From Parafannyhessea umbonata (GTDB lineage Bacteria > Actinomycetota > Coriobacteriia > Coriobacteriales > Atopobiaceae), in contig NZ_FOGP01000001.1 in NCBI RefSeq assembly GCF_900111255.1, positions 160,894 through 224,893 on the forward strand: DNA of 64,000 nt, given 5' to 3'. The position numbers and the translations under genes are program-made. Positions 26,312 to 39,369 of the stretch are shown piece after piece; position 1 is the stretch's first letter; every line of letters begins with the position of its first letter. The notes beneath the pieces were generated by a model, which ran no database searches, was not told where the DNA came from, and saw only the letters and a program-made list of their open reading frames with translations.

Positions 26312-26743
26312 CTAGTCCTCGACCTCAAGAAGCTCGATCTCGAAGTTGAGCGCCTTGCCGGCCATCTCGTGGTTCAGGTCGAGGGAGATTGCCTCGGGCG
26401 TCACCTTGCAGACCGTCGCGGGAACGGGCAAGCCCTGTGGGGACTGGAGCATGACCTTCTCGCCCACCTTGATGCCGCGCATCTGCTCGGGAACCTGGGA
26501 CATGGGGAACTCCTGGATGAGGTCCTCACGGCGCTCGCCATAGGCCTCCTCGGGCTCGAGGTGCACGTTGGCGGTCTGGCCGACCTCCATGTCCCTGACG
26601 GCCTTGTCGAAGCCGGCGATCATCTGGCCTGCCATGCAGGTGAAGCCCAGCGGCTCGTTGCGGTCACGGGACGAGTCAAACTTGGTGCCGTCGTCAAGGG
26701 TTCCGACGTAGTGGACCTTGACCTTCTTTCCTTCGTTGCTCAC
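26312..26743 (-). CDS. SlyD-like FKBP peptidyl-prolyl isomerase
   Basis: A 143-residue folding helper. The FKBP halves VKVHYVGTLDDGTKFDSSRD (start) and the later LDLNHEMAGKALNFEIELLEV flank an inserted IF-type flap domain (about 70-120, EAYGERREDLIQEF), as in SlyD. There is no His-rich tail, so it is not a metal-storage SlyD. It is the first gene of an operon with pth2, which hints at a shared role around nascent peptides; that link is inferred from coupling only. Confidence 0.93.
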   Translation of the reverse strand: MSNEGKKVKVHYVGTLDDGTKFDSSRDRNEPLGFTCMAGQMIAGFDKAVRDMEVGQTANVHLEPEEAYGERREDLIQEFPMSQVPEQMRGIKVGEKVMLQSPQGLPVPATVCKVTPEAISLDLNHEMAGKALNFEIELLEVED

Positions 26744-26860
26744 GTGTGCTCCTGTCGTTTGTCGCGTGCGTACTGTGTCACTTTACCTAATAATGGATGG
26801 TAGCCATACCGTGCGTACCCTATCCCGCCACGGCGGGTTCACATATTGAAGGCGAATGAC

Positions 26861-28729
26861 ATGATCGACAAGAGTATCAGGGAGATCGTGCGCCGTTGCC
26901 GACCACACATGTGGGCGGCCGCCGCTCTGTTCTTCGCGTGCTATCTGGCGGACGTCGTACTCATCACGTGCGTTGCCTATGCGCTGACCACCATCATCTA
27001 TCCGCAGCAGCCGGTTCTGTGGGTGATTGCGCCCATCCTGCTGGTCGTGGCCGTCCGCTGCGCCCTGCGCATGCTCTCGCTGAGCCAGTGCTCCAAGGTG
27101 AGCTCCATGGTCGAGCTCGAGCTATCGGAACGCATCACCGAGAAGCTCACCCGCCTCTCTTGGACGCGCGTGGCCGAGCGCCGCGAGCGCGAGTTCGTGT
27201 GGTGCGCGCGAAAGGGCGCCACGTGCATCGGTGACCTCCTGGGCAACGTCGTCCCCGTGGCGGTGGGGACCTTGGGCCTGGTCATCGTCATCCTGATAGG
27301 CGGCCTGTACCTGGGCTGGCGCATGCCCGCCACCCTGCTTGCCTTCGTCGTCGCCGTCGTCGCGCTGAGCGGCGCCGCGTATTTCCTGGTCAAGCGCGAG
27401 CTGCGCGAAAAGGGGCTCATCGAGGCGGGGGATGACTCCGGCGCGTACTTCGACCTGGTCGTGAAGGAGGCCGACCTGCTTCGCGACTATCGCGTGGGAG
27501 AGGACTTCGCGGGCCTTGCCGCAGAGAGGAACAGCCGCGACTCGGACGAGACCCTGATGGGCGAGAGACGCCGTCGCTACCCGCTGCTCGCCACCCTGAT
27601 TGCCTCGGCCGTGGGCCTGGTGACAATCGTCTACACGACGGCGTTCGACGCGTCGTTTGCGAGCGCGAACATCGTGCACGCCACCTCGATGATCCTCTAC
27701 ACCTGCTACGGACTCCTGCGCGTCTCGATCATGGCCTTCAAGTCCGGCGAGGTCGCCGAGGCCGAAGAGGCCGCGCTGCTCATGGCCGATCTGCTGTCGC
27801 TGCGCGTTCCTGACGAGAACGGCTCGCTTGCGACCGTCGCCGGCGATCACCTTTCGGCAAACCGCCTCGCCTACAGCTATGACGGCGAGAAGTTCGTTCT
27901 CAAGTCCGTGACGATCGACGTCCCCGCGGTGGGGCTCACCGCCGTCGTGGGGGTCGAGGGAAGCGGCAAGTCGACCCTGGCGGGCGTCCTCGCCGGGCAC
28001 CTGCGCGACTACCGCGGCAACGTTCTGCTGGGCGGAAAGCAGCTGCGCGACGTGCTGCGCACTTCTCGCCTGCGCTACATCACCTACGTGGGCATCGACA
28101 GCGAGCTTTTGAGCTCGACCGTCCGCGAGAACCTGCTCATGGGCGACCCTGCGGCCACCGAGGGCGAGATGTGGAGCGTCCTTTCGGCCGTTGGCCTCGA
28201 CAGTGAGTGCCGCAGGCGCGGCGGGCTCGACTTCGAGCTCGTCGCTGGCGGCACGAACGTCTCGCGCAGCGAGCGCCTGCGCCTGGCACTGGCCCGCGCC
28301 GTGCTGCACAACACGCCGATCATCATCATCGATGGCCTGATGGACGAGATCAACCCCGTCGACCAGCGCAAGGCCATGCTTGCGCTGCGCGGCATAGCCC
28401 GCTTCAAGGCGGTCGTCGTGCTGACGCGCTATCCGGTCCAGGCCCAGTTTGCGAAGGTCGTGTACCTGCTCTCAGAGGGGACCATCATCGCGTCTGGCTC
28501 CCACGAGGAGCTCATGGCGAGCTACGAGCCCTACAGAAGCGCGTGCGAGCAGCAGGAGCGCCTGCTTGCCCTGGAGCCTCCCCAGTCGGAGGCCGTCGAC
28601 GGAGCCGAGCACGACGCCGCGGGCGACCAGGATCCCGATGCGACCAACGTGCTTGTGATGCCTCATCCCGAGGGCGTGGTCAGAACCGGTGAGCCTCGTT
28701 GGGGAGAGGGGGTCGAGGGCCATGAGTAG
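26861..28729 (+). CDS. ABC exporter-like half-transporter with degenerate ATPase domain (first of a pair)
   Basis: A 622-residue protein: six predicted membrane segments in residues 15-300, then a nucleotide-binding domain. Walker A is intact (GVEGSGKST, near 367-375). The rest is eroded: the LSGGQ signature reads VSRSE, the Walker B Glu is Gly (IIIIDGLMDE), and the switch His is lost (VVLTRYP). The C-terminal 70 residues are polar. The TTG at 26846 is an alternative start, but ATG 26861 has GAAGG at good distance. Its last 8 bases overlap the next gene, so the two should form a heterodimer. The fold resembles CydCD/lipid-type exporters, but I would not assign a substrate. Confidence 0.85.
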   Translation: MIDKSIREIVRRCRPHMWAAAALFFACYLADVVLITCVAYALTTIIYPQQPVLWVIAPILLVVAVRCALRMLSLSQCSKVSSMVELELSERITEKLTRLSWTRVAERREREFVWCARKGATCIGDLLGNVVPVAVGTLGLVIVILIGGLYLGWRMPATLLAFVVAVVALSGAAYFLVKRELREKGLIEAGDDSGAYFDLVVKEADLLRDYRVGEDFAGLAAERNSRDSDETLMGERRRRYPLLATLIASAVGLVTIVYTTAFDASFASANIVHATSMILYTCYGLLRVSIMAFKSGEVAEAEEAALLMADLLSLRVPDENGSLATVAGDHLSANRLAYSYDGEKFVLKSVTIDVPAVGLTAVVGVEGSGKSTLAGVLAGHLRDYRGNVLLGGKQLRDVLRTSRLRYITYVGIDSELLSSTVRENLLMGDPAATEGEMWSVLSAVGLDSECRRRGGLDFELVAGGTNVSRSERLRLALARAVLHNTPIIIIDGLMDEINPVDQRKAMLALRGIARFKAVVVLTRYPVQAQFAKVVYLLSEGTIIASGSHEELMASYEPYRSACEQQERLLALEPPQSEAVDGAEHDAAGDQDPDATNVLVMPHPEGVVRTGEPRWGEGVEGHE

Positions 28730-30485
28730 CCTTCTGTCAATCTGGCGAGTCGCGCTCCTGGCGCGCAAGTCCTTCTCGAAGCTCGTCGTGGCGACCCTGT
28801 GCGAGCTGGGGTTGTGGCTGCTTGCCACGCACGTCCTTTCCGTCGGCGTCTCGAGTGTCATGCGCGTCGCGCTTCCCGACGTCGGCATCCTTGCGAATTA
28901 CTGGCTCGAGCTCATGATCGGCTTCTGCCTGGCCGCCTCGGTCTTCTTCTTCGTCTGCCGATGGACGCGCAGGGTCTACCTTCACGACGTCGCCCGACAG
29001 GTTCGTGCCTCCATTCTGCTCGACGCCGTCAGGCCGGGCTCACGCCTCGCGGGTGACGGCTCGATCAAGGCCCCCGCAAGCGTCGCGCAACGCCTGGTGA
29101 GCGAGATGCTGCCCGTGGTCGAGACCATCTCGACCCTGGCCGCCTCAGTCGTCGCCTGCCTGATCCTGGCCATCGCCTCGCCGCTCTGCGGCTTCGTCAC
29201 CCTCGCCTGCGTCGTCGCATCGACCGCGGGCATCGCGATCGTCGTCAAGCTGCGCGCGAATGACGTCCAACTCACCGAGCACTCTCTCACGCGCTCGCTC
29301 ACGGTCCTGGTGAACGACAACCTGCGCTGCGCGGGTGAGGTCGAGCAGTATGGTGCCGGCCCGCAGCGCAACGCACGGGTGATCGCGGATGCGGCCGCAC
29401 GAAGCCGTGCCGCGCTGAGCGCCACCGTCACCGTCGGCATCGCCCTTGCGGTCGACCTTGCCGTGCTGCTCGCGATGGCGGTCCTGCTCTACGTCAGGCT
29501 CGCCTCCGACGTCGCCGCCGGCCAGATGCCCGCCTTCTCGGCACTCCTGGCTGCTGCCGGGGCGGCGACGCTGCTCATAGTCAACTACCGCCCTCGTACC
29601 ATCATGGAGCTTCCCGTCGCCCTCCAGGCGGTCAAGCGAATCGATGCCATCCTGATGGCCGACGCCGACGACGTTGCCGACGCGCTCGACGCCGAGGCCA
29701 TGCTCTCGATGGAGGTCGTCGATGGTGGCGGTGTCGACGGCGGTGGAGAAGGCCTCGATTCCGACGGCTCTTCCGAGAATGCCTCCGAGCAGGTGGACCG
29801 TGCTTCCGCGAGCGCGGACCCGACGACGTTTGCCGGCGTCCTTCTCCACGACGTGTGCTGCTCGATCGACGACGGCCGCGGCCTCCAGGGCATCGACCTC
29901 GCGATCGCCCCGGGCGAGTTCGTGAGCGTCCAGTGCGACGACGAGGCCGAAAGGGACGTGCTCTGCGCGCTGCTCCTGAGGCACGCCGAGCCTGACCGCG
30001 GCATCATCGCGCTCTCGGGCACGCGCCTGGCGAGCGTGTCGGAGGACGAGCTGCGCTCCACGATTGTTCCGGTCATGCGCGAGACGGCGCTCTTCCCCGG
30101 GAGCATCCGGCAGAACCTTCGCCTGGGCAAGCCTAGCGCCTTCGACGACGAGCTCGAGGGGGTCCTTCGCAAGGTCGGCCTCGACTTCGTGCTGGAGCTC
30201 GAGGACGGCCTGGGGACGGGCGTCGACGAGCCTGCCGCGAGCCGCCTGAGCGAGGACGGGCTTATGCGCCAGCGCCTGGGGCTCGCCCGAGCCATCCTGA
30301 GTCCCGCGAAGCTCATCGTCATGAACGACCCGACCGGCGACCTCGGTCCCATTCAGGAGGCCGAGCTGCTCAGGTCCATCGTTGCGCTCAAGGGAAGTCG
30401 CAGCGTGCTCTTCGTCTCGAGGACCGATCGCCTCGAGCGCCTGGCGGACGCTTCATACAAGCTTGACGGCGGACGTATACACTAG
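28722..30485 (+). CDS. ABC exporter-like half-transporter with lost P-loop (second of a pair)
   Basis: A 587-residue partner of the gene before, which it overlaps by 8 bases (ATG 28722). The N-terminal half carries about six membrane segments; an acidic Gly/Asp/Ser linker follows near residues 330-375. In the nucleotide-binding domain the Walker A loop is missing (SVQCDDEAERDVLCALL where GxxGxGKST should be), the signature is RLSEDG, Walker B ends MNDPTGDL with no Glu, and the switch His is absent (LFVSRTDRL). The overall ABC fold can still be followed. Either the pair uses one unusual site, or it has a non-transport role. Confidence 0.85.
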   Translation: MSSLLSIWRVALLARKSFSKLVVATLCELGLWLLATHVLSVGVSSVMRVALPDVGILANYWLELMIGFCLAASVFFFVCRWTRRVYLHDVARQVRASILLDAVRPGSRLAGDGSIKAPASVAQRLVSEMLPVVETISTLAASVVACLILAIASPLCGFVTLACVVASTAGIAIVVKLRANDVQLTEHSLTRSLTVLVNDNLRCAGEVEQYGAGPQRNARVIADAAARSRAALSATVTVGIALAVDLAVLLAMAVLLYVRLASDVAAGQMPAFSALLAAAGAATLLIVNYRPRTIMELPVALQAVKRIDAILMADADDVADALDAEAMLSMEVVDGGGVDGGGEGLDSDGSSENASEQVDRASASADPTTFAGVLLHDVCCSIDDGRGLQGIDLAIAPGEFVSVQCDDEAERDVLCALLLRHAEPDRGIIALSGTRLASVSEDELRSTIVPVMRETALFPGSIRQNLRLGKPSAFDDELEGVLRKVGLDFVLELEDGLGTGVDEPAASRLSEDGLMRQRLGLARAILSPAKLIVMNDPTGDLGPIQEAELLRSIVALKGSRSVLFVSRTDRLERLADASYKLDGGRIH

Positions 30486-30586: not shown

Positions 30587-31357
30587 GTGGACAAGCGGGG
30601 ATTCACGGGTGTGTTCGACTCGGGTGTCGGTGGTATCAGCGTCTTGAAGAGCCTGGTGCGCGAACTGCCATGCGAGGACTTCGTTTTCTTTGGCGACTCT
30701 GCGAACGCCCCCTATGGCGAGAAGGACACCGAGCAGGTCATCGAGCTATCTCGCGCAATCGTCGACGACTTCGTGTCGAAGGGTGCCAAGGCCATCGTCA
30801 TCGCCTGCAATACGGCGACGTCCGCGGCCGCACCCACGCTGCGCGAGGAATACCCGCAGGTTCCCATAGTGGGCGTCGAGCCGGCCCTCAAGCCCGCCAC
30901 CCTTGCCCCCAAGAGCGACCGAATCCTCGTGATGGCCACGCCCGTCACGCTTCGCCTCGAGAAGTTCCACCGCCTCGCGCAGAAGTGGGGCGTGGGCTCC
31001 GAGGTCATTCCCGCTCCCTGTCCTGGCCTTGCCGCACGCATCGAGCAGGGCAGGCTCGACGATCCCGATCTGGTCGAGCTCATCGAGAGCCTCGTGGGGC
31101 GCTACAGGGGCGAGGTCGACTCCGTCGTCCTCGGCTGCACCCACTATCCCTTCGTGAAGAGCCAGATTCGCGAGGTCCTGGGCGACGTTCCCTTCTTTGA
31201 TGGGGCTGAGGGCACGTCTCGCCAGCTGCGCCACCTCCTGGAGCACGGCGGGCTTCTGAACGACTCCGACCGCGCCGGTACGGTAACCTTCCGCTCGAGC
31301 AAGAAGGCGGAGGGAGAGCTCGACTTCTATCAGTGGCTCTTCCAGCAGGAGATCTAG
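30587..31357 (+). CDS. murI: Glutamate racemase
   Basis: A 256-residue enzyme that makes D-glutamate for peptidoglycan. The two catalytic Cys lie in IACNTATSAA (near residue 73) and VLGCTHYPF (near 184); the N-terminal substrate motif FDSGVGG is near 10-16. It starts with GTG at 30587 after GGGGAGGA. It is about 100 bases after the degenerate ABC pair and may have its own promoter; a small GCGGGA/TCCCGC hairpin lies between them. Confidence 0.96.
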   Translation: MDKRGFTGVFDSGVGGISVLKSLVRELPCEDFVFFGDSANAPYGEKDTEQVIELSRAIVDDFVSKGAKAIVIACNTATSAAAPTLREEYPQVPIVGVEPALKPATLAPKSDRILVMATPVTLRLEKFHRLAQKWGVGSEVIPAPCPGLAARIEQGRLDDPDLVELIESLVGRYRGEVDSVVLGCTHYPFVKSQIREVLGDVPFFDGAEGTSRQLRHLLEHGGLLNDSDRAGTVTFRSSKKAEGELDFYQWLFQQEI

Positions 31358-35545: not shown

Positions 35546-35988
35546 TGTGCTTCCCCCTTGTCTTTTCTTGCCGTGCCCTTCCTTACATTGCTTGTCAGTT
35601 TAGAGATATTGTGAAGCGCATGTGAGAGAAAATGGCTGTTTACCTGCGCATACCTAAATCAAAGCGATGTGAGGAGAATTGCGTTTTCTTTCGGTGGTAT
35701 TACTTTCGTGGACCAAGGTGATGCGGCTCTTGCTAAATGCAAGAAATGCGTAAGCCATTTTCTTGCTACAAAGAAAAGAAGTACGTCCACAAATCCTCCA
35801 CATTCGATTTTTAGCCGAACGCCAGCAGACATGCATCAAATTGTCGACGAATGGGCACTGCAAGACGGTAGCGGGCCATAATCTGCGCCGGAAGGGGGTG
35901 CTGTCACGTCTCTTGGGTTGGTAACGTACAATGGTCGTGGTTGTTTATCCAACGCCTAGCAGTTCCTCTGACCATGATCGGAGCGGAC
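35546..35988. other. AT-richer divergent intergenic region
   Basis: About 440 bases between the divergent fructose PTS operon and the GGDEF-EAL gene, noticeably lower in GC. It must hold both promoters. TACAAT (35927-35932) is a fair -10 for the rightward gene. I looked for a c-di-GMP riboswitch because of the gene downstream and did not see its conserved boxes. Short reading frames here look like noise. Confidence 0.4.
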
Positions 35989-38900
35989 ATGTCCTTGGAT
36001 GCCCACTCTATAGAGCGGCTCGTCGCCAGATCCGTCGAAGACGCGCCTGGTGGCTTCATGGTCTGCCTTGCCTCAAAGGAGGCGGAGGACCTCATCCTGT
36101 ATGCCAGCGACAGCTTGGTCGCGCTTTTCGACTGCGACGACCAAGATGACTTCATGCGGTTCTCGACGGGAAGGATCAGCGGCCTTGGTGACCCCTACGA
36201 GGTCAATCGCATGTTCTCGGGGGTGGGGGAGCAGGTCGCCGAGGGACACCGCCATTTTGCCGTTACGACGCACATCATCACCAAGACGGGAAGACGCGTG
36301 GCGGTCGGGCTCTCGGGCCTCACTGTCCAGGACTCGGAGCTCGGCCTGGTGGCGATCGTCACCTTCGACACCGACGTCGTTGCCTTCCTCCCCCAAGACG
36401 ACGACCCCCTCACGGGGCTTTCCGGCATGAGGAGCTTCCTGTCTCGCGCGAAGAGGTCGATGGACGAGGCGAGTCGCTCGGCGCGCGAGTCCGGCGGATG
36501 CTACGTGTTTTTCGACATCCACAACTTCAAGCTCGTCAATGCGGCCCTCGGTGTCGCGAGCGGAGACGAGCTCCTGGTCAAGTTGGCCGAGCTCCTGCGC
36601 GAGACGTTCCCCAGTGACTTCGTCGCGCGCTTTGCCGATGACCACTTTGCCGTCCTCACGTTTTGCGAAGACGTCGAGAAGCGCGTGGCGCACGTGCACG
36701 ATGCGGTGACGCTCCTGCATCCCAGCGTCGACATCGAGCTCAAGGCAGGCATCTATCCACGCGACCTGACTGTCGACCCCAGCGTTTCCTGTGACAGGGC
36801 GAAGCTCGCCTGCGACAGCATCGCCCATGCCGTCGACGTGTACCAGCGTTGGTACGACCCCTCCATGAGCGCGGTGTTCCTTGCGGGGGCGTTTGCGGCC
36901 AACAGCCTGGACGAGGCCCTGGCCGCCGGCGACATAAAGGTGTACTACCAACCGGTCATCCGGTCCATCACCGGAAACCTTTGCGGCCTCGAGGCTCTGG
37001 TTCGCTGGGACGACCCCGACCACGAGCTGCTCTCGCCCGCGTCGTTCATACCGGCCCTCGAGACGAGCAAGCAGATTCACAAGCTCGACTGCTTCGTCGT
37101 GCGCGAGATCTGCCGCAACTATCGCAGGGTCGTCGACTCGGGCGCCGCGACCGTTCCCGTGTCGTTCAACCTCTCGAGGCTCGATTTCATCCTCTGCGAT
37201 GTGTTTCAAGAGGTGGAAGACGCCGTCATGAGATACGACGTCCCGCGCGACATGATTCGCGTCGAGATCACCGAGAGCATGCTCGCGACCGACGCCGAGC
37301 GCGTACGGGGCCAGATGGAGCGCTTCCGCGCGGCGGGCTATCAGGTCTGGATGGACGACTTCGGCAGCGGCTACTCGTCGCTCAACCTTATGAAGGACAA
37401 TGACTTCGATGCCATGAAGATCGACATGGAGTTCCTCTCGAACTTCAACGACAAGTCGAGGGGCATCATCGAGTCGGTGGTGGCCATGGCCAAGAGACTT
37501 GGCGTGCAGACGCTCGCGGAGGGCGTGGAGACCCAAGAGGAGTTCTGCTTCCTCCGAGACATCGGCTGCGAGAAGGTCCAGGGCTACCTCTTTGGCAAGC
37601 CTATGCCCTACGAGCGGTGCATGGCGCGCTGCGAGGAGCTAGGGCTCGAGGTCGAGTCGCGCTCCTGGAGGCACTACTATGACGCGATTGGCCAGGTGGA
37701 CTTCATGACCGACCAGCCGCTGAGCCTGCTCGAGTACGATGGGGAGTCGTTCAGGGTACTTTTCGGCAACGAGGGGTTCTACGCCCTGGCGCTCCGTGGC
37801 CGCTCGAAGAGCGCGCACAAGGTCGAGAGCATCTTGAACATGCCCGACAACCCGGTCTACCGAAGGTTCAGGGAGGCCGTCGAGCGGCAGGCACGTACGG
37901 GGCGCACTGAGTTCATCACCTTCATCGACAGGGGCAGGTACTTCTCGGCGACGTTCTCGCTCGTCGCGGACAACAAGGAACTGCGCGCCTTCGTCAACTC
38001 GTGGCGCGACGTTTCGGACAGCGAGGAGGCCCGCGTACGCGGTGACCTGGACGAGACGCTCAGGAACCTCTATCTGCTGTACGACTCCGTGCTTTTGGTT
38101 GATCGTCAGGACGACACTGTGACGTCGCTGCTCTCGGGAATGAGCGCGGCAGAGTCCGGAGACAGGACCGTGTCGGGGATCGACGCCGTGAGGACGCGCT
38201 ACGCGCTCGAGAAGGTCTTTCCCGAGGACCGTTCGCGCTATCTCTCGTTTACCGACCCCGAGACCATGCAGGAGCGCTGCCAGGAGGCCGTGGACGGAAA
38301 GGTCATGGCCTACTTCCGCACGCGTGGCCGCTACGGAAGCTACGCCTGGAAGTCGTACACGATTCTTGCCCTGCACGAGCTTGGGCCGGAGGGGAGTCGG
38401 TTCATGCTGTGCATCGAGGATGCGACCATCAACAACAAGGAAGCGCTGTCGGTGCTGCTCAACGGCTACGGCCTGAGAGAAGGAAGCCTGGTGTCCGACG
38501 ACCCTTCGGTGCTGACTCCCGAGCTCCTTTGGAACAACCTGCTGCTCAACTCTCGCGTGAACTACTTCTGGAAGGACCGCAAGCGTCGCTTCCTTGGGGC
38601 GAGCAGGGCCTTTTTGGACTACTACGGATTCCTGTCCGTCGACGAGATCCTGGGCAAGACTGACGAGGACATGGGCTGGCACGTGGACAACGACCCCTAC
38701 CGCTCGGACGAGCTTGCGGTTCTGAACGAGGGGAAGCACATCTTCTTTGCGCCGGGAAAGTGCATCATCCGAGGCGTTGTGCACAACATCCGTGCGAGCA
38801 AGGCACCCATCTACAAGAACGGGAAGATTGTCGGCCTGCTGGGCTACTTCGTGGACCTCGACACATCAGGATTCGAGATCGGCGGGAACGACGAGGCCAC

Positions 38901-39369
38901 CATCACCGACCGCGTGACGGGCGTGACGAACGCCCGCGGCCTGTGGGAGGCGGCCATCGACTACACCGAGGACTACTATCTCCATGCGACGCGCTTTGCG
39001 GTGATTGCGCTGGTCGTGCCCGAGTACCTTCGCGAGCTGGACGAGTATGGGCGCGTGGTGTCCGATGCGCTTCTGGCCACCATTGCAAGAAGAATCGTGG
39101 GACGAGTCGGGGTGAGCGGGACGGTCGCGCGACTGTCCAACGCGGAGTTCGTCGTGATCGTCCGCTACGGACGCGCCCGAGAGGTCGACGTCCTGGCGCG
39201 GGCGCTGTGCAAGGACATCTCGGAGATCCATGAGGCGCAGGGACACGACTGCACCGTGACGGCGCGCTATGGCGTGGCGCTCGAGGACGAGGCGGCGACC
39301 GTTAACGAGCTGGTTGACGTGGCGCTGGCCGCTGCTCGCGAGAAGGTCGGCAGGGGGAGCTCGGAGTAG
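35989..39369 (+). CDS. GGDEF-EAL-PAS-GGDEF signalling protein, likely c-di-GMP phosphodiesterase
   Basis: A 1126-residue soluble protein with no clear membrane segment. The order is a PAS-like N-terminus (to 120), a GGDEF domain (about 135-270) whose active motif is ADDHF near 215, an EAL domain (about 300-545), PAS-like regions (about 560-960), and a second GGDEF domain (about 985-1120) whose motif is SNAEF near 1050. Both GGDEF sites are dead. The EAL domain keeps GLEALVRW, SFNLSR, VEITES, DDFGSGYSSL, LAEGVET and VQGYLFGKP, so it should hydrolyse c-di-GMP. The start at 35989 has CGGAGCGG before it; TTG 35941 is less likely. Confidence 0.9.
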   Translation: MSLDAHSIERLVARSVEDAPGGFMVCLASKEAEDLILYASDSLVALFDCDDQDDFMRFSTGRISGLGDPYEVNRMFSGVGEQVAEGHRHFAVTTHIITKTGRRVAVGLSGLTVQDSELGLVAIVTFDTDVVAFLPQDDDPLTGLSGMRSFLSRAKRSMDEASRSARESGGCYVFFDIHNFKLVNAALGVASGDELLVKLAELLRETFPSDFVARFADDHFAVLTFCEDVEKRVAHVHDAVTLLHPSVDIELKAGIYPRDLTVDPSVSCDRAKLACDSIAHAVDVYQRWYDPSMSAVFLAGAFAANSLDEALAAGDIKVYYQPVIRSITGNLCGLEALVRWDDPDHELLSPASFIPALETSKQIHKLDCFVVREICRNYRRVVDSGAATVPVSFNLSRLDFILCDVFQEVEDAVMRYDVPRDMIRVEITESMLATDAERVRGQMERFRAAGYQVWMDDFGSGYSSLNLMKDNDFDAMKIDMEFLSNFNDKSRGIIESVVAMAKRLGVQTLAEGVETQEEFCFLRDIGCEKVQGYLFGKPMPYERCMARCEELGLEVESRSWRHYYDAIGQVDFMTDQPLSLLEYDGESFRVLFGNEGFYALALRGRSKSAHKVESILNMPDNPVYRRFREAVERQARTGRTEFITFIDRGRYFSATFSLVADNKELRAFVNSWRDVSDSEEARVRGDLDETLRNLYLLYDSVLLVDRQDDTVTSLLSGMSAAESGDRTVSGIDAVRTRYALEKVFPEDRSRYLSFTDPETMQERCQEAVDGKVMAYFRTRGRYGSYAWKSYTILALHELGPEGSRFMLCIEDATINNKEALSVLLNGYGLREGSLVSDDPSVLTPELLWNNLLLNSRVNYFWKDRKRRFLGASRAFLDYYGFLSVDEILGKTDEDMGWHVDNDPYRSDELAVLNEGKHIFFAPGKCIIRGVVHNIRASKAPIYKNGKIVGLLGYFVDLDTSGFEIGGNDEATITDRVTGVTNARGLWEAAIDYTEDYYLHATRFAVIALVVPEYLRELDEYGRVVSDALLATIARRIVGRVGVSGTVARLSNAEFVVIVRYGRAREVDVLARALCKDISEIHEAQGHDCTVTARYGVALEDEAATVNELVDVALAAAREKVGRGSSE

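Follow-up and report, generated by a model that had tools for sequence, protein, structure and literature searches.

Two adjacent genes encode a CydD-like and a CydC-like ABC half-transporter (chains A and B) in which both composite ATPase sites have lost their catalytic residues, and the dead ATPase domains are the conserved part of the pair. The reading that we put first, tentatively and from sequence, is that the two chains form an ATP-binding, non-hydrolysing pseudo-transporter, which would have lost heme export and would persist in a regulatory or scaffold role. Slightly more tentative is the corresponding course of events, in which an exporter heterodimer may have been converted as a unit: hydrolysis and the heme ligand would have been lost, the membrane domains would have drifted, and the pair of nucleotide-binding domains (NBDs) would have been kept as a conserved platform that binds ATP and has taken on a new role in regulation or as a scaffold.

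The genome containing the window (the whole stretch of 64,000 nucleotides analysed here) is 2.06 Mb in size and belongs to the family Atopobiaceae (Coriobacteriales). Its nearest relatives in the data are Olsenella intestinalis KCTC 25379 and a water deer Olsenella MAG (deer gut). The pair and its two neighbours are arranged as follows.

26312..26743, minus strand: FKBP-type prolyl isomerase, divergent upstream neighbour (Pfam FKBP_C; synteny)
26861..28729, plus strand: chain A, CydD-like ABC half-transporter with membrane domain (TMD) and NBD (open reading frame; start aligned with relatives)
28722..30485, plus strand: chain B, CydC-like ABC half-transporter with TMD and NBD, 587 residues from ATG (open reading frame)
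30587..31357, plus strand: glutamate racemase-like gene (murI), downstream neighbour (Pfam Asp_Glu_race; synteny)

Chain A comprises 622 residues from the ATG at 26861, or 627 from a TTG at 26846. The ATG is the best start, as it lines up with the starts of the relatives, and the stop codon lies at 28727-28729. The B start at 28722 overlaps the end of A by 8 nucleotides, and both frames are open. By synteny, the fkbp gene also adjoins intact orthologous pairs in several other genera, murI homologs are found downstream of intact pairs in several other genera, and the whole neighbourhood metH-metF-pth-fkbp / A B / murI is common to several intact pairs, which are thus true orthologs of A and B. 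Comparison of gene neighbourhoods disclosed no genus-specific partner gene adjoining the pair, and no viral relatives were found. Since the window genome holds no second, intact copy of the pair, the idea of an extra degenerate copy kept beside a working one was rejected. Some relatives carry the two intact half-transporters as a single fusion protein of about 1170-1210 residues (three loci). Elsewhere in the window (35941-39369), a large signalling protein combines an EAL domain, two GGDEF-type stretches and a PAS fold, its GGDEF motifs looking degenerate by eye (ADDHF, SNAEF).

A composite ABC site takes its Walker A motif and catalytic Glu from one chain and its signature from the other. 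The motifs of both chains were called by alignment with the intact orthologs, with the following outcome for chain A.

27950..27976, plus strand: Walker A retained, GVEGSGKST (alignment)
28259..28273, plus strand: signature lost, VSRSE replacing LSGGQ (alignment)
28319..28354, plus strand: Walker B and D-loop, IIIIDGLMDEIN, where intact orthologs have.LDEATSN.D (alignment)
28427..28429, plus strand: switch His replaced by Arg528 (alignment; Arg in all three species)

The Walker A residues G369, G372, S373, G374, K375 and T377 are invariant in the three species of the genus. The signature position reads LSQSE and LSLSE in the two relatives. The Walker B Asp496 is kept, the catalytic Glu has become Gly497 (Ala in the relatives) and the D-loop is changed. 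The Q-loop Gln is missing from the intact A orthologs too, and its absence is thus not part of the erosion. Residues newly fixed in the A NBD of the genus include Q476E, S500D and H528R. Chain B has gone further, even its Walker A loop having disappeared.

29934..29960, plus strand: Walker A lost, the acidic CDDEAERDV replacing GxSGSGKST (alignment)
30246..30266, plus strand: signature lost, LSEDGLM where intact orthologs have LSGGE (alignment)
30312..30347, plus strand: Walker B and D-loop, LIVMNDPTGDLG (alignment)
30420..30422, plus strand: switch His replaced by Arg578 (alignment)

The relatives have CDDDRERAV and SENDRERAM at the Walker A position. The core of the B Walker B and D-loop, MNDPTGDLG compared with LDEPTSNLD in intact orthologs, changes the Walker B Asp to Asn and the catalytic Glu to Asp; the Q-loop Gln has become Arg, the A-loop aromatic is absent, and K422R is newly fixed in the genus. 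Between its membrane domain and NBD, the B chain of the window species also carries some 40 additional residues, acidic and rich in glycine (29700-29830, residues ~338-380). Neither of the other two species has this insert, and its structure is predicted at very low confidence. A first, sequence-only reading had described A as keeping Walker A and lacking LSGGQ, the Walker B Glu and the switch His, and B as lacking Walker A, the Walker B Glu and the switch His. Alignment with the intact orthologs bears out both descriptions and adds to the losses of B the signature, the Q-loop Gln and the Walker B Asp.

Both chains match Pfam ABC_tran above its cut-off, as expected of type IV (type I exporter) half-transporters. 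However the two are combined, no pairing rebuilds a canonical site, since a canonical signature and the catalytic Glu are missing from both chains (with Asp at the Glu position of B) and Walker A is missing from B; the motif alignment thus leaves A and B without the one full composite site that defines an active ABC ATPase. One degenerate site is common among ABC exporters, and its purpose is debated. Three other exporter pairs of the window genome served as controls, and each has this usual single degenerate site; a fourth has two near-canonical ones. In the three control pairs, the changes are Glu to Asp and His to Gln in one chain, with an SQGQ signature in the other. The A/B pair has both sites degenerate instead of exactly one consensus site, so that the initial remark that two dead sites set it apart from usual heterodimers holds within its own genome, and an ordinary one-site heterodimer was rejected by the motif comparison and these in-genome pairs.

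It is quite improbable that the pair is still an ATP-driven pump, either working with non-canonical residues or paired with a third half-transporter from which the missing parts would come. The Asp of B at the catalytic Glu position is indeed acidic, and human degenerate sites with the same Glu-to-Asp change still hydrolyse slowly (PMC7756269). But Walker A, the A-loop aromatic, the Q-loop Gln and the switch His are all missing from B, the catalytic position of A is not acidic, neither signature is canonical, and a heme ligand is lost too (see below). Exchanging partners cannot build a canonical site from A or from B, and rescue by a third half-transporter was rejected on these motif grounds. 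Chain A has retained a complete half-site for ATP binding: the adenine-stacking aromatic Tyr343 of its A-loop, its Walker A and its Walker B Asp do not vary among the three species. One ATP is thus probably still bound, and the A/B heterodimer would most likely not hydrolyse it.

The pairs of O. intestinalis and of the deer-gut MAG are 43% and 33-36% identical to the window pair, respectively. The losses are common to the three species at every catalytic position for which there is sequence, except that the MAG keeps the B Walker B Asp; its contig ends inside B just after Walker B, and the B switch His is thus read in two species. Elsewhere in the family, the Walker A Lys, the catalytic Glu and the switch His are preserved in both chains of the orthologous pairs of 50 other Atopobiaceae genomes, and the same three residues are intact in two further genomes with only B on the contig, these counts applying wherever the respective stretch is present. 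Related pairs in Collinsella, Bifidobacterium and Firmicutes are also intact, as judged by simple motif patterns only. When all NBDs are put into one tree, the A sequences of the three species form one clade and their B sequences another (each 100/100), both inside the intact orthologs. The stem of the A clade measures 0.82 substitutions per site and that of the B clade 1.93, whereas the median end branch is 0.31. The loss at both sites thus has a single origin, on the stem of this Olsenella group.

This distribution also settles what the sequence-only reading had left to related genomes. It had proposed to look there for the same changes, and both other species of the genus have them; it had held that relatives with intact motifs would point to sequencing error or recent decay, and such relatives exist outside the genus and not inside it, which dates the change to one ancestral branch and speaks against error or recent decay. 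A sequencing or assembly error has practically no probability left, as three species that were sequenced independently, one of them as a cultured strain, have the substitutions in common. Recent local decay was rejected likewise, given the single ancestral origin and the open frames.

The ancestor of the pair was probably a CydDC-type heme exporter with two canonical ATPase sites, as suggested by profile scores and by the histidines of the intact orthologs. The intact A orthologs score 394-403 bits against the CydD model TIGR02857, just below its cut-off of 435, and the intact B orthologs 314-322 bits against the CydC model TIGR02868, just below its cut-off of 329. The chains of the genus score 104-139 bits against CydD and CydC models. 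In the window species, A reaches 117 bits against the CydC model NF008364 (cut-off 630) and 114 against TIGR02857 (435), and B 119 bits against TIGR02868 (329), all of them below the cut-offs. When aligned with the solved E. coli CydDC, a His of the intact B orthologs falls exactly on CydC H85, and one of the intact A orthologs exactly on CydD H312, which are the two axial heme ligands. These histidines are present in 17/17 of the intact B orthologs shown (H85 column) and in 18/18 of the intact A orthologs (H312 column). In E. coli CydDC, His85 and Glu500 (the Walker B Glu) of CydC are essential (PMC10374445). The residue of the window species in the H85 column is the following.

28971..28973, plus strand: B Arg95 (numbered from GTG 28689), TM2, CydC His85 column (alignment)

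The genus thus has Arg (window species) or Asp and Glu (relatives) in place of the H85 ligand, and in the H312 column the window species has no His and the two relatives have one a column away, single columns being somewhat uncertain here because the membrane domains of the genus align with the intact proteins at 17-20% identity. Cytochrome bd (PF01654, CydA), the partner oxidase of CydDC, was found neither in the window genome nor in the family genomes searched (0/61). CydDC-type pairs with both heme ligands conserved are widespread in Atopobiaceae genomes lacking this cytochrome.

The conserved part of the A/B pair is made up of the dead ATPase domains, as seen from rate ratios, kept columns and Pfam matches. 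Their identity to the window species is 60-63% (A) and 49-54% (B), and within the genus 60-78% (A) and 49-64% (B), compared with 21-32% to the window species for the TMDs; the membrane segments, at 8-36% to the window species, count among the most variable parts of the pair, even inside the genus. The TMD/NBD rate ratio of A is 4.25 in the genus versus 0.89 in the intact orthologs, and that of B 2.44 versus 1.36. Among the columns at least 90% conserved in the intact orthologs, the A chains of the genus keep 10/90 in the TMD and 34/62 in the NBD, and the B chains 13/80 and 27/77. The Pfam ABC_membrane model recognises 4/4 of the intact proteins compared with it, and no A or B chain of the genus.

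The window species and O. intestinalis differ at 736 nucleotides in A and at 768 in B; placed at random, these differences would have created ~22 and ~17 stop codons, respectively (~38 in all), and none is observed. Codon-position differences were used in place of dN/dS because silent sites look saturated. Between O. intestinalis and the MAG, they amount to 0.16/0.14/0.46 at codon positions 1/2/3 in the A NBD and to 0.35/0.27/0.47 in the A membrane domain, a mildly purifying pattern. The earlier judgement that the genes are not decaying is thus supported by changes common to three species, by open frames and by codons under purifying selection. Its companion, that the membrane parts are kept, is true of length, hydrophobic segments and predicted fold, with the qualification that the sequence has diverged to the point where ABC_membrane is undetected in all three species.

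It is possible, if unlikely, that the pair is a dead end under weak residual selection, its purpose gone, its hydrolysis and heme site decayed, with little or no current role. The collapsed constraint on the membrane domains (TMD identity of 21-32%; 10/90 and 13/80 TMD columns kept), the loss of the heme ligand together with all hydrolysis determinants, and the only mildly purifying TMD codon pattern between the two relatives would all fit such an outcome. However, O. intestinalis and the window species both have full-length, overlapping frames, the frames of the MAG fragment are open, none of the ~38 stops expected from random differences is present, and the dead NBDs, in which specific new residues have become fixed, still show identities of 60-78% (A) and 49-64% (B). 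A change of role fits best with a pair that has lost its fuel system and its substrate ligand and has kept full-length genes and a conserved NBD pair. Against the pseudo-transporter reading, it counts that three species only are concerned, one of them a MAG with a truncated B gene, that no genus-specific partner gene adjoins the pair, and that the fast evolution of the membrane domains fits a slow slide to uselessness as well.

The predicted structure of A has an exporter fold (pLDDT 76.7; TM-scores of 0.75-0.77 to IrtA and ~0.70-0.73 to CydD chains) with a low-confidence C-terminal tail, and the B model (pLDDT 78.4) matches solved exporters with an uncertain domain orientation, these folds being weak evidence of stability as the AlphaFold (AF2) alignments consist mostly of intact relatives. 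The B membrane domain of the window species gave no direct matches to solved structures. Five to six hydrophobic segments are left, and with the intact Walker A of A they are what an ATP-gated channel, a facilitator or an ion-driven carrier could work with, moving a new substrate down its gradient or by ion-motive force, ATP binding serving only to open or lock the path. There are precedents in CFTR (PMC7756269) and in the LmrA membrane domain (PMC6155054). We consider this rather improbable, somewhat more so than a dead end, as membrane segments at 8-36% identity to the window species are not expected of a selected substrate path, unless substrates vary by species. The sequence-only reading had supposed either a barely hydrolysing sensor or regulator or a transporter driven by other means. 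The loss of the heme ligand and the collapsed constraint on the membrane domains lead us to favour a loss of the old transport function rather than a pump that has only switched to another source of energy.

The pseudo-transporter reading can be laid out as a sequence of steps. It would start from a heterodimeric exporter of the CydDC type that had two canonical ATPase sites and probably transported heme. On the Olsenella branch, hydrolysis would have been lost at both sites, together with at least the CydC-side heme ligand. The A half-site would most likely still bind one ATP that is not hydrolysed. Purifying selection acts on the dead NBDs, and the membrane domains would now be little more than anchors. 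A and B could thus act as a membrane-anchored regulator, sensor or scaffold, with a logic like that of the sulfonylurea receptors.

Non-pump ABC proteins (SUR, CFTR) and single degenerate sites are already known. What is added here is a natural pair dead at both sites across three species, beside close orthologs with both sites alive, and comparing the dead and intact pairs could tell what an NBD dimer is still capable of once hydrolysis is gone, and by which route a pump turns into a protein that no longer pumps. A further outcome is that anaerobes without cytochrome bd have CydDC-type pairs in which the heme ligands are conserved. A limited search of the open-licence literature gave no precedent for a bacterial exporter heterodimer with both sites lost and yet conserved.

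Among known systems, CydDC, the heterodimeric heme/thiol exporter (E. coli 7zd5 and relatives), is the family of origin, from which A and B differ in having lost both ATPase sites and the CydC-side heme ligand. TM287/288, TmrAB, BmrCD and TAP are likewise pairs of half-transporters in which the Walker B Glu, the switch His and the signature have changed, but they keep one consensus site where A and B have none. A single degenerate site is found in 21/29 of the full-length or heterodimeric human ABC proteins (PMC7756269). Neither the sulfonylurea receptors (ABCC8/9), which regulate a K+ channel, nor CFTR (ABCC7), an ATP-gated channel, is a pump (PMC7756269). Their resemblance to A and B, as ABC proteins without a pump role, is one of logic and not of descent, since they are eukaryotic ABCC full transporters in which only one of the two sites is degenerate. 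The LmrA membrane domain mediates ion conductance and ethidium-proton symport (PMC6155054). It shows that the membrane domain of an ABC protein can work when no ATP is hydrolysed, although in that case the situation is an experimental truncation, or a mode, of an otherwise competent ABC pump.
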